DNA of 64,000 nucleotides from Pseudomonas fluorescens (lineage in GTDB: Bacteria > Pseudomonadota > Gammaproteobacteria > Pseudomonadales > Pseudomonadaceae), in the NCBI RefSeq assembly GCF_001648775.1, contig NZ_LVEJ01000037.1, positions 1-64,000 on the forward strand, in the 5' to 3' direction. The position numbers were made by a program, and so were the translations under genes. How positions within the stretch are numbered: the first letter of the stretch is position 1; every line of letters starts with the position of its first letter. Of this stretch, positions 9,760 to 41,539 are shown in pieces. The notes under the pieces were generated by a model. The model was not told the origin of the DNA and searched no databases. It saw only the letters and a list, made by a program, of their open reading frames with translations.

Positions 9760-9936
9760 CCCTCACCCTAGCCCTCTCCCGGAGGTAGAGGGGACCGATT
9801 GGGGGATGCTCAAAATCGCCGCCGACCTGAAAAATCTTTGCCGAATCCATAATCGACTGGATCGTTCAGGTCGCCGAATATCTCAAGACAACCCGGTCAG
9901 TCCCCTCTCCCTCCGGGAGAGGGTTAGGGTGAGGGG
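9760..9936. repeat. MITE-like element, single copy
   Basis: About 177 bases bounded by inverted arms: CCCTCACCCTAGCCCTCTCC at the left, and its near-perfect complement ending GGGTTAGGGTGAGGG at the right. The arms match over about 34 bases with two mismatches. Each arm can itself fold (CCCTCTCCC/GGGAGAGGG). The core carries GAATCCATAATCGAC, shared with elements at 27613-28178 and 41286-41539. It sits between puuA and puuC and contains no ORF. Confidence 0.8.
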
Positions 9937-24449: not shown

Positions 24450-25402
24450 GACCGTTCAATTACAGCCGCGCCGACTCCCCCGCCGCTGCCGCCGCACAAG
24501 CCGCGCAATTTGAAGGCGCGCGGTTCATCGCCGGCGGTACCAACCTGCTCGACCTGATGAAACTCGACATCGAAACCCCGCCACAACTGATCGATGTCAA
24601 CCACCTCGGGCTGGATCAGATCGAAGCCACGGCCGAAGGCGGATTGCGCATCGGCGCGCTGGTGCGCAACACCGATCTGGCTGCCGATGCGCGCATCCGC
24701 AAAGACTACGCCCTGCTCTCCCGTGCCCTGCTCGCTGGGGCTTCCGGGCAGTTGCGCAACATGGCGAGCACCGCCGGCAACCTGCTGCAACGCACGCGCT
24801 GCCCGTACTTCTACGACACCAATCAGGCCTGCAACAAACGCCAACCCGGCAGTGGTTGCGCGGCAATTGGCGGGGTCAGTCGGCAGTTGGGCATCATCGG
24901 CGTCAGCGACGCGTGCATCGCCACGCACCCGAGCGACATGGCCATCGCCATGCGTGCCCTCGATGCGCAGATTGAAACGGTGAAACCCGACGGCAGCACC
25001 CGCAGCATCGCCATGGTCGATTTTCATCAATTACCGGGCACCACACCGAACATCGAAACCAACCTAACGCCCGGCGAGTTCATCACCTCGGTGACACTGC
25101 CCGCGCCGGTTGGCGGCACCCACATTTATCACAAGGTGCGCGATCGCTCCTCCTATGCGTTCGCGCTGGTGTCGGTCGGTCTGATCCTGCAACAGGACGG
25201 CAGCGGCCGCGTTGCCGTCGGCGGTATCGCACCGAAACCGTGGCGGGTCGAAGCCGCCGAAGCGCTGCTACCGAAAGGCGCCAAAGCCGTCAGCGAACGT
25301 CTGCTCGAGGGTGCCACGCCGACCCACGACAACCAATTCAAACTGACCCTCGTCGAGCGCACGCTCGGTGCAGTGTTGGCGCAAGCGAGGGAACCCGCAT
25401 GA
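24446..25402 (+). CDS. paoB: Periplasmic aldehyde oxidoreductase, FAD subunit
   Basis: 318 residues of the xanthine-dehydrogenase FAD-binding class: [13 protein letters not shown] near residues 28-40 for FAD. Cys119, Cys129, Cys138 and Cys157 lie in the RTRCPYFYD to GVSDACIAT stretch, matching the extra [4Fe-4S] cluster of E. coli PaoB. It has no signal of its own and would be carried out with PaoA. It overlaps paoA and paoC by four bases each. Confidence 0.92.
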
Positions 25403-27597
25403 AATTCGACACGCCCGCCACCACCAACCCGATCGACCAGCTGAAGGTCATCGGCCACCCCACCGAACGCATCGAAGGCCCGCTGAAAACCAGCGGTCAG
25501 GCGCCGTACGCCTATGAACAGCATGAGGCGGTGGCCCATCAGGCTTACGGTGTCATGGTCGGTTCGGCCATCGCCAAGGGGCGGATCAATAACATCGATC
25601 TTGAGGCCGCCAAAGCTGCGCCCGGCGTGCTCGCCATCGTCACCGCCGCCAACGCCGGCAAACTCGGCAAGGGCAAATACAACGCCGCGCATTTGTTGGC
25701 CGGGCCCGAGATTCAGCACTATCACCAGGCTGTCGCACTGGTGGTGGCCGAGACGTTCGAACAGGCGCGCGCCGCCGCGCAATTGGTCAAGGTCGACTAT
25801 ATCGCGGCCAAGGGCGAGTTCGACCTGGCCAGCGTGCGCGACAAAGGCGTCGAGCCGAAAGAGGAATTGCCCGATGTCACTCACGGCGATTTCGCCAAAG
25901 CGTTCGCCGCAGCGCCAGTGCAGTTCGACCAGACCTACACCACGCCGGATCAGTCCCACGCGATGATGGAACCGCACGCGACACTGGCGGCGTGGAAAGG
26001 CGATCAACTAACGCTGTGGACCTCCAATCAGATGATCGCCTGGAGCGTTGGCGACATCGCCACGACGCTCGGTCTGCCCAAGGAAAAAGTCCGGCTGATC
26101 TCGCCGTACATCGGTGGCGGCTTCGGCGGCAAACTGTTCGTGCGCGCCGATGCGATCCTCGCCGCACTCGGTGCGCGCATGGCCGGCAGACCGGTAAAAG
26201 TCGCCCTCGCCCGTCCGCAGATCGCCAACAACACCACCCATCGTCCGGCGACGATTCAGCGCATTCGCATGGGCGCGACGGCGGATGGCAAACTCACGGC
26301 GATTGCCCACGAAGGCTGGTCGGGCAACCTCGCTGAAGGCAAGGTCGAAGTCGCGGCACAGCCGAGCCAGTTGTTGTACGCGGCGGAAAATCGGCAGGTC
26401 AGCATGCGTTTGTCTCCGCTGGATCTGCCCGAAGGCAACGCCATGCGCGCGCCCGGCGAAACCCCGGGATTGATGGTGCTGGAAATTGCCATGGACGAGA
26501 TGGCCGAACAGCTCAAGCTTGATCCGATCCAGTTCCGCATCCTCAATGACACCCAGGTCGACCCGGTGAAAACCGAGCGGCCGTTCTCGCAGCGGCGCTT
26601 GATCGAATGCCTGCAAACCGGCGCCGACAAGTTCGGCTGGAGTCAGCGCAATGCCCAACCGGGCTCACGGCGCGAAGGCCGCTGGCTGATCGGCATGGGC
26701 GTGGCCGCGGCGATTCGCAACAACTTGCTGGTGAAGTCTGGCGCGCGGGTACGGTTGGAGCGCGATGGCAAGGTCACGGTGGAAACCGACATGACCGATA
26801 TCGGCACTGGCAGTTACACGATTATCGCGCAGACAGCGGCCGAGATGATGGGCGTTGGCTTGAAGGATGTGACTGTGCATCTGGGTGATTCGAACTTTCC
26901 GGTGTCGGCAGGCTCCGGCGGGCAATTTGGTGCCAACTGCTCGACTGCCGGGGTGTATGCCGCGTGCATGAAGTTGCGTGAGGCGGTGGCGGGCAAACTG
27001 GGCATGGCGGCGGATCAGGCAGAGTTTGTCGACGGTCAGGTGCGGGTCGGCGACAAGCACGTGCCGTTGCGCAATGCCGCGCAAAACGGCGTGGTGGAGG
27101 CTGAGGACAGCATCGAGTTTGGCGACCTTGCCAAGCAGTATCAGCAGTCGACGTTTGGTGCGCACTTCGTCGAGGTGGCGGTGGATGCCGCGACCGGTGA
27201 AGTGCGGGTGCGCCGCATGTTGGCGGTGTGCGCGGCCGGGCGCATTCTCAACCCGCAAGCGGCGCGTAGTCAGGTGATCGGCGCGATGACCATGGGCGTC
27301 GGTGCGGCGCTGATGGAAGAGTTGGCGGTGGACAAGACGCTGGGGTTTTTCGTCAACCATGATTTGGCGGGGTATGAAGTGCCGGTGCATGCCGACATTC
27401 CACATCAGGAGGTGATTTTCCTTGATGAGACTGATCCGGTTTCTTCGCCGATGAAGGCCAAGGGGGTCGGGGAATTGGGCATTTGCGGGGTCAGTGCGGC
27501 GGTGGCGAATGCGATTTACAACGCCACGGGGGCGAGGGTGCGGGAGTATCCGATTACGCTGGACAAGATATTGTCGTCGTTGCCGGAGATGATCTGA
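25399..27597 (+). CDS. paoC: Periplasmic aldehyde oxidoreductase, molybdopterin subunit
   Basis: 732 residues of the xanthine oxidase large-subunit family, with the molybdenum-cofactor loop GGGFGGKLF (near residue 238), [11 protein letters not shown] (near 350) and the catalytic Glu in [10 protein letters not shown] near the C-terminus (about residue 692). It oxidises aldehydes to acids. It starts in the paoB stop (ATGA at 25399), not at the upstream ATG at 25240. The XdhC-like chaperone gene paoD, usually next to paoC, is not in this window. The transcript ends at a repeat array. Confidence 0.92.
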
Positions 27598-27612
27598 AGG
27601 CCCCTGAAAAGC

Positions 27613-28178
27613 CCCTCACCCTAACCCTCTCCCAGAGGGAGAGGGGACCGATCCGGGGATATTGGAGAACTTCACCGACGTGAACGCTCAGCTGTGAATC
27701 CATAATCGACTCGGTTTCTCAGGTCGATATATGACGCCAGACACCTCGGTCAGCTCCCTCTCCCTCCGGGAGAGGGCTGGGGTGAGGGAAATTGGATAGT
27801 CTCACCGACCCGAAGGATCGGCTGTAAATCCATAATCGACTCAGTTTCTCAGGTCGATGTATGACGCAAGACACCTCGGTCAGCTCCCTCTCCCTCCGGG
27901 AGAGGGCTGGGGTGAGGGAAATTGGATAGTCTCACCGACCTGAAGGATCGGCTGTGAATCCATAATCGACTCGGTCTCTCAGGTCGATGTATGACGCCAG
28001 ACACCTCGGTCAGCTCCCTCTCCCTCCGGGAGAGGGCTGGGGTGAGGAAAATTGGATAGTCTCACCGACCTGAAGGATCGGCTGTGAATCCATAATCGAC
28101 TCGGTCTCTCACGTCGATGTATGACGCAAGACACCTCGGTCAGCTCCCTCTCCCTCCGGGAGAGGGCTGGGGTGAGGG
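27613..28178. repeat. MITE-like element expanded to four 130-bp tandem copies
   Basis: One left arm (CCCTCACCCTAACCCTCTCC) is followed by four tandem units of exactly 130 bases; the motif CATAATCGAC begins at 27701, 27831, 27961 and 28091. Each unit carries AATCCATAATCGACTC, GACACCTCGGTCAG and a right arm with CCCTCTCCC/GGGAGAGGG. Units 2-4 are nearly identical, suggesting recent amplification. No ORF is convincing. It fills the gap between paoC and the convergent cupin gene. Confidence 0.9.
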
Positions 28179-28185
28179 AAGAGGC

Positions 28186-29653
<1,468 letters not shown>

Positions 29654-41285: not shown

Positions 41286-41539
41286 CCCTCACCCTAACCC
41301 TCTCCCAAAGGGAGAGGGGACTGATTGGGGGATGCTGCAGAAATCCACCGACGTGAACGATTTGCTTTGAATCCATAATCGAAACAGCCACAGGCTCGGA
41401 CGGCCTTGAATCCATAATCGATGCTTGAACTGGCAAGCACGGCCTTGAATCCATAATCGACTGGTTTTTTCAGGTCGATGTAACCCGAGAGAAACCTCGG
41501 TCGGCCCCCTCTCCCTCCGGGAGAGAGCTGGGGTGAGGG
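41286..41539. repeat. MITE-like element with tripled internal motif
   Basis: Bounded by CCCTCACCCTAACCCTCTCC and a right arm ending GAGCTGGGGTGAGGG. Length is 254 bases, longer than the 177-base copy at 9760, because TTGAATCCATAATCGA occurs three times (41367, 41406 and 41448) instead of once. The second and third copies share CGGCC before the motif. It lies between preA and the convergent TetR gene. Confidence 0.85.

Follow-up and report, generated by a model that had tools for sequence, protein, structure and literature searches.

Tandem duplication within a dispersed hairpin element of Pseudomonas fluorescens and the variable copy number of a 130-bp array between two convergent genes

A hairpin-forming element of Pseudomonas fluorescens was found to carry a four-unit tandem array with a period of 130 bp, and internal tandem duplication was shown to be frequent in the family to which the element belongs; the array is thus no isolated accident. 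It lies at positions 27613-28178 of the window, a 64,000-nucleotide stretch of contig NZ_LVEJ01000037.1, and was confirmed as a real structure, with chance ruled out. Within the parts of the literature compared, the element, the type of its arms, and tandem repeats inside a bacterial MITE (BrickBuilt, PMC4596501) are already known. What is apparently new, in that we did not find it in the open-licence literature, is recurrent duplication across the centre in more than half of the copies examined, together with turnover from species to species at one site.

The array and its setting

TRF reported one array at 27672-28180 with a period of 130, 3.9 copies, 95% matches, and a score of 920. All of its parts lie on the forward strand. 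Unit 1, placed by TRF and register alignment, occupies 27659-27788 and belongs to a first, complete element copy of 176 bp (27613-27788) consisting of the left arm, the core, and the right arm. It is followed by units 2 (27789-27918), 3 (27919-28048), and 4 (28049-28178), each of which consists of the core and the right arm without the left arm. The single left arm of the array (27613-27645, 33 nt) holds a 21-bp palindrome, CCCTCTCCC...GGGAGAGGG. One right arm ends each of the four units (27756-27788, 27886-27918, 28016-28048, and 28146-28178); the third has a final base unlike that of the other right arms, and the fourth forms the end of the array.

The sequence AATCCATAATCGAC was unbroken in all four units. 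The 15-base core motif within the units was GAATCCATAATCGAC in units 1, 3, and 4 (27696-27710, 27956-27970, and 28086-28100) and AAATCCATAATCGAC, with one mismatch, in unit 2 (27826-27840); in the whole window, eight matches with up to three mismatches were observed against 1.44 expected. Units 2 to 4 differed pairwise at 3, 5, and 6 of 130 positions. Unit 1 differed from them at 12, 13, and 14 positions, 9 or 10 of which fell within its first 32 bases. These observations bear out a preliminary description, made from the sequence without database searches, in which four nearly identical 130-bp units were said to share the core motif, to have one left arm but a right arm in each unit, and to differ at only a handful of positions among units 2 to 4.

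Folded as single-stranded DNA, unit 1 together with the left arm gave -46.9 kcal/mol versus -27.6 kcal/mol (sd 3.2) for shuffled sequences (z -6.0), and the middle of unit 1 was predicted to be branched or irregular. The junction of the founding duplication, GAGGGAAATTGG (27784-27795), joins the end of the right arm to the inner core. By eye, one breakpoint lies at the end of the right arm or no more than 3 nt beyond, the other falls near position 47 of the element, and the homology at the junction amounts to about 1 nt; the breakpoints were placed at 64/187 by consensus alignment and at about 47/177 by eye.

The element is intergenic at the array, as it is at the orthologous sites read. The array lies tail-to-tail between a gene for a molybdopterin dehydrogenase large subunit (25240-27597, forward strand; MoCoBD_1, MoCoBD_2, and Ald_Xan_dh_C) and a gene for a small cupin protein (28186-28665, reverse strand), both with their 3' ends towards it. 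No host function beyond this position between two gene ends is needed for the data. Five Rfam matches (MIR1858, antizyme element, and whalefall-1) were all below the gathering scores and were rejected as chance matches on G/C-rich hairpins.

The element family and known systems

The genome searched comprises 6.55 Mb in 64 contigs. A pattern of the left-arm type had 209 exact matches, which include some right ends and left arms repeated inside arrays, against none for the reversed control. The core motif, with up to two mismatches, had 151 matches against two for the reversed control. The family is dispersed over many contigs, and two families of copies, A and B, were distinguished. Solo copies of family A are 174-176 bp long with arms of about 33 nt, the same size as the first copy of the array. 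One lies elsewhere in the window (9760-9935, forward strand), and a further family A copy, found between convergent ORF ends (41286-41539, forward strand), has the core three times at a period of 39 bp, not 130. The family A consensus, built from 15 aligned 176-bp copies, has a G+C content of 59.09% and was predicted to fold end to end at -53 kcal/mol (DNA parameters) with GAATCCATAATCGAC at the tip; no other stretch of the core is conserved as strongly as this motif, which about equals the arms in conservation. Solo copies of family B (147-161 bp) have arms and a left half similar to those of family A and a different centre, and in both family B consensus folds the arms were predicted to be paired and the middle branched. 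The placement of the motif at a hairpin tip hence rests on the family A consensus, since neither family B nor unit 1 is predicted to have a regular, unbranched middle. The arms, about 33 nt each, are predicted to pair with each other, and each may also form a hairpin by itself.

The exact core motif was present in 17 of 149 Pseudomonas genomes examined, the present one included, in 1 to 94 copies and mostly in many, and was absent from the other 132. The arm sequences of the family presumably differ from the SBW25 REPs. Locus L022 (G000 C16:273800-274250) appeared by eye to be chimeric: a family B left half and centre lead into a centre and right half of family A, with the switch in mid-element. 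An arm with its loop enlarged by ACGTCGGACCGCCC or its reverse complement was observed at L012, L013, and L024 of the same genome and at L136, an orthologous site; this variant is common to several loci.

One of the closest known systems is R6 of P. fluorescens Pf0-1. R6 is given as 177 bp with inverted repeats of 34 bp, 59.09% G+C, and 50 copies (Silby et al. 2009, PMC2718517, Table 3), and nine copies of 120 bp are given as 'R6-partial' in the same paper. Family A agrees with R6 in its solo size, its arm length, the G+C content of its consensus, its dispersed distribution, and its occurrence in the P. fluorescens group. The case for an R6-type element is accordingly strong but not proven, the match being by size, inverted-repeat length, and G+C and not by consensus sequence. 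The part of that paper describing R6 mentions neither internal tandem duplications nor copy-number variation at a site.

By eye, the arms also show the pattern of the triplex motif TM, CCCTCTCCC-loop-GGGAGAGGG-loop-GGGGTGAGGG or GGGTGAGGG, as a sequence pattern. The right arm, CCCTCTCCCTCCGGGAGAGGGCTGGGGTGAGGG, fits type B, and the reverse complement of the left arm fits type A (Holder et al. 2015, PMC4666352, Table 1). That study treats single motifs and inverted pairs, and its account of them includes no motif-armed elements that amplify their own core. The same CCCTCTCCC-GGGAGAGGG palindrome occurs in Enterobacter sp. 638 in about 100 copies, often at gene 3' ends; the passage concerned has these palindromes single, double, or triple, with no 176-bp element carrying a core (PMC2869309). 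BrickBuilt of Porphyromonas gingivalis is likewise an intergenic, multicopy MITE with an internal tandem repeat (1 to 22.8 repeats), but as described it has a single 23-nt unit throughout (Klein et al. 2015, PMC4596501), whereas the units of the present family are of many kinds and surround the centre. Tetris of Drosophila virilis is a foldback element in which tandem repeats inside the element give rise to growing arrays; it differs, according to the portion compared, in being eukaryotic and in having its repeats in the terminal inverted repeats, from which they grow to kilobase satellites (Dias et al. 2014, PMC4079207). Sequence words of both cores gave no match in open-licence literature, and the portions of that literature on MITEs with tandem repeats or on P. 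fluorescens repeats held no report of the behaviour described here.

The preliminary description had called the element MITE-like. This holds in part: the element is short, multicopy, and bounded by terminal inverted repeats, it is hairpin-forming, and it grows by core and right arm. Solo-size arm pairs, 36 in number from 35 sources and including at least seven within arrays, were not flanked by direct repeats of 3-8 bp more often than shuffled sequences were; duplications of 2 bp would fall outside the range of this test. Among the exact arms listed, none were paired at 1-6 kb, a spacing at which a gene could lie between them. The genome has one match to a Y1-transposase or RAYT-like gene (PF01797; C33:83937-84242, L199), and no arm or core motif of the family was found within its 3.3-kb locus. 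No support for transposition itself was therefore obtained, as neither an excess of target duplications of at least 3 bp nor, among the arms listed, a transposase with these ends was found, and the RAYT was rejected as the mobiliser. REPINs also consist of paired inverted repeats, form hairpins, and occur in tandem clusters in a P. fluorescens genome, and in the text concerned their clusters adjoin RAYT genes, in contrast to the sole RAYT-like gene here (Bertels and Rainey 2011, PMC3116915). By eye, the PF01797 gene is flanked by GCGAGCAGGCTCGCTCCCACA repeats, which form a separate palindromic family.

Internal duplications and their position in the element

Elements were paired on contigs C1-C14 by their exact arms alone, without use of the core; the pairing took up the 100 places listed of the 209 of left-arm type and, of the 158 other-arm places, those 73 of the 100 listed that lie on C1-C14, and arms without a partner were not counted. 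Solo-sized elements (147-161 or 174-176 bp) made up 28 of the 64 obtained, and the other 36 were 202-702 bp long, with none between 176 and 202 bp. All 34 of the long elements for which sequences were fetched repeat internally: 29 had internal direct repeats in BLAST, and the remaining five (L011, L027, L032, L037, and L059) had two to three core copies each. The periods (25, 36, 42, 45, 52, 54, 64, 102-103, 110-115, and 130-135 bp) and the breakpoints varied by locus. The solo elements with the same arms that the preliminary description had proposed to look for were thus found elsewhere in the genome, and they were also found at the orthologous site in relatives.

The duplication junctions were then mapped by alignment to the consensus with backward jumps allowed, which gives approximate positions, and were compared with intervals of equal lengths placed at random. 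In family A, 32 of 37 junctions spanned the centre (positions 85-97) against 17.7 expected, and none of 200,000 simulations was as high; among units of 80 bp or less, 19 of 23 did so against 4.0 expected. These counts are biased because most of the loci were found through the motif. The subset chosen via the arms is free of this bias, and in it 8 of 9 junctions spanned the centre against 2.2 expected (P = 5e-6). The same was observed in family B, where all loci were arm-chosen: 20 of 22 junctions against 14.8 expected (P = 0.0009), and 7 of 9 for short units against 2.4 expected (P = 0.0015). The centre was missed by 5 of 37 junctions in family A and 2 of 22 in family B. Breakpoints symmetric about the stem were considered and rejected; start and end correlated at -0.33 in family A (P = 0.035), whereas family B gave +0.47, opposite in sign to the prediction.

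The count leaves out L012, L013, and L024 as arm variants and one near-repeat each in L026 and L070, and covers the first element only of L087 and the solo element only of L080. The map does not include loci lacking a recognised right arm (L018, L020, L047, L049, L050, L051, L053, L062, L066, L071, L075, L085, and L088) or left arm (L054); among these unmapped loci, L051, L088, L018, and L020 were expanded by eye. Units of 36 bp with nearly identical breakpoints were observed at three loci, L009 (five core copies), L055, and L214 (G019), which suggests a preferred pair of breakpoints around the centre.

Most mapped junctions had 0-2 bases of homology, as measured on the consensus. We lean towards a model in which slippage or breakage provoked by the hairpin seeds the duplication and homologous exchange then changes the copy number. 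During replication, the predicted extrusion would turn the element into a long hairpin that places the central motif at its tip or close to it. A stall at the hairpin or a break at its tip would occasionally lead copying to resume upstream, nearly or wholly without homology, and so leave a tandem duplication around the centre of the element. Once two direct copies were present, unequal exchange or slippage between nearly identical units could expand or collapse the array, and the locus would behave like a minisatellite. A review describes cruciform extrusion from the centre of palindromes and palindrome-linked breakage, citing palindrome breakage by SbcCD in E. coli (PMC7999016), and Holder et al. 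report raised variability around arms of this kind in E. coli (PMC4666352). Our confidence in the hairpin model is lowered by the predicted folds of family B and unit 1, neither of which is one clean hairpin throughout its middle. The broader statement that the hairpin centre is a hotspot at which replication or repair creates direct tandem duplications nearly free of homology, affecting over half of the elements paired by arms and listed for one genome, is offered only tentatively.

A purely homologous origin, by exchange or slippage between the palindromes of the left and right arm, should also be considered. These 21-bp palindromes are 86% alike and in direct orientation to each other. At L002, L005, L041, and L081, moreover, the breakpoints lie in or beside arm palindromes with nine bases of homology on the consensus, and at L002 and L005, where the periods are about 131 bp, both palindromes are involved. 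Many units also contain an arm palindrome, and the arms rather than the tip could therefore be the cause of the duplications. Against this, the window junction as placed by eye lies outside the palindromes, the homology at it and at most mapped junctions is as slight as noted above, and units of 25-54 bp contain no arm, which excludes homology between arms as the only origin. We consider a purely homologous origin rather unlikely, although arm-palindrome homology can still be the origin of the class of about 131 bp. The preliminary description had attributed the amplification to slippage or unequal exchange using the right arms. This was not borne out for the founding step, the junction of which shows no arm-to-arm exchange; the arms or units can explain the later steps.

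Alternatively, an enzyme such as a transposase or a nuclease might cut the loop GAATCCATAATCGAC, or its family B counterpart, and repair might then make the duplications. The conservation of the motif, its position inside most mapped duplications, and its presence, mostly in many copies, in the 17 genomes of the genus are what such cutting would lead one to expect. Family B weakens this explanation, having another sequence at the centre across which it duplicates in the same manner. Furthermore, the sole Y1-transposase match lacks the arms and the motif in its 3.3-kb locus, and no gene-holding arm pair of 1-6 kb was seen among the listed arms. We regard an enzyme acting on the loop as improbable.

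If the broader statement on the hairpin centre as a hotspot is true, long-armed hairpin elements would be a general route to the birth of minisatellites in bacteria. The 209 exact left-arm-type matches, with 36 of 64 paired elements expanded, constitute many natural replicates of the birth of a tandem duplication, for which sister species show the solo and other states. They allow a direct test of whether hairpin or triplex DNA is linked to local instability. The family may also supply variable-number loci to tell strains of the P. fluorescens group apart.

The orthologous site and copy number in relatives

A search with the cupin gene gave a match in 18 of 57 genomes, five of which had both neighbour genes together nearby. 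G019, with a cupin gene 94% identical, had a single element at the site, G033 had a degenerate one, and G034, G011, and G016 had no element between the same neighbour genes. That expansions arise in place is most evident at such a site, where the copy of a sister species is single. From named relatives (best 80 of 186), 35 Pseudomonas loci were obtained, of which 32 were readable; a neighbour gene was unreadable at L122, L139, and L146. The element was found at 14 of the 32 loci and a degenerate one at a further locus. The other 17 had no recognisable element, three of them (L129, L134, and L148) showing short arm-like palindromes. A different palindromic repeat of the GTAGGAGCTGCCGCAGGCTGCGATC type was seen between the same genes at L120, L127, L147, L149, L150, L167, L181, and others, as if the site accepted hairpin repeats in general.

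These counts bear on a further alternative, namely that copy number is under selection, for example for stronger transcript-end hairpins between the convergent genes. The array site is tail-to-tail, a tail-repeat-tail bias of repeat families is reported for these genomes (Silby et al. 2009, PMC2718517), and the CCCTCTCCC-GGGAGAGGG palindromes are presumed to act as terminators in the Enterobacter sp. 638 genome paper (PMC2869309). However, several relatives are single-copy at the site and 17 of the 32 readable loci are element-less, and a scan of 27400-28400 showed no intrinsic terminator with a T run and no promoter. Selection on copy number thus appears quite improbable.

In a tree of the flanking genes (34 rows), the window fell within a nine-member clade with support of 99/99, all nine members of which have the element; its flanking genes are at most 90% identical to those of any other row. 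The clade has one to four core motifs at the site in several architectures. The window has four, and the sister pairs are L128 with four against L141 with one, L123 with three against L142 with one, L124 with three against G019 with one (pair support 93/88), and L136 and L140 with two each in different architectures. The unit number thus varies at one site between species, as in a VNTR. The same four-copy array fixed in relatives, which the preliminary description had named as evidence against a recent expansion, was not seen; outside the clade, L119 has six core copies with a period of 132 bp and another junction, apparently an independent expansion at the same site.

The junction GAGGGAAATTGG was found at the site in five of the nine clade members, namely the window, L123, L124, L128, and L140. 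Furthermore, when the left part of units 3 and 4 in the window is compared over 52 positions, it departs from unit 3 of L128 at one position and from window unit 1 at nine. Because of this shared junction and the likeness to L128, the founding duplication is probably older than these five species, and most simply the sisters with one copy have contracted. Alternatively, the locus may have passed from one species to another, or the duplication may have originated more than once at one breakpoint. The earlier claim of a recent expansion therefore holds for copy number, which ranges from one to four and with it the sister pairs differ, but not for the founding junction common to five species. Import of units 2 to 4 from another genomic copy was rejected, the best near-full matches being 83-84% identical (40 of 203 candidates scored); the divergence of unit 1 is better explained by an old duplication shared with L128, in view of the likeness just described.

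Other loci were compared with G019 in 18 fetched regions, with five locus pairs counted as orthologous: L007/L200, L086/L213, and L087/L214 by both flanks, and L019/L212 and L020/L216 by the one flank available. The one-sided matches L037/L202 and L011/L210 were dropped. Between the window genome and G019, motif number differed at four of seven element pairs (4 vs 1 at the window array, 2 vs 3, 2 vs 3, and 1 vs 4) and agreed at two (2 vs 2 with different spacing, and 1 vs 1); a fifth differing pair had at least 2 vs 4, the copy of the window genome lying at a contig end.

All copy numbers were taken from assemblies. Arrays of the family were observed at or near contig ends at L051 (C2:653400-654690), L052 (C3:1-800), L020 (C16:1-450), and C22:5-226, where copy numbers may be lower bounds because the contigs end or begin there; such repeats may explain the ends of some contigs. 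With an assembly in 64 contigs, some ending at or near arrays (the end of C2 and the starts of C3, C16, and C22), the four copies might themselves have come from mis-assembly of short reads. We judge this very improbable, as base changes distinguish the units, expanded copies of the family are also present in G019, a genome in one contig, and the junction recurs at the orthologous site in four further assemblies.

Finally, a duplication of an inner 51 bp of the core was observed at the site in six species (L123, L124, L126, L128, L136, and L137). L126 and L137 lie outside the nine-species clade, and this duplication would accordingly be older than the clade, exchanged between species, or repeated at one breakpoint.
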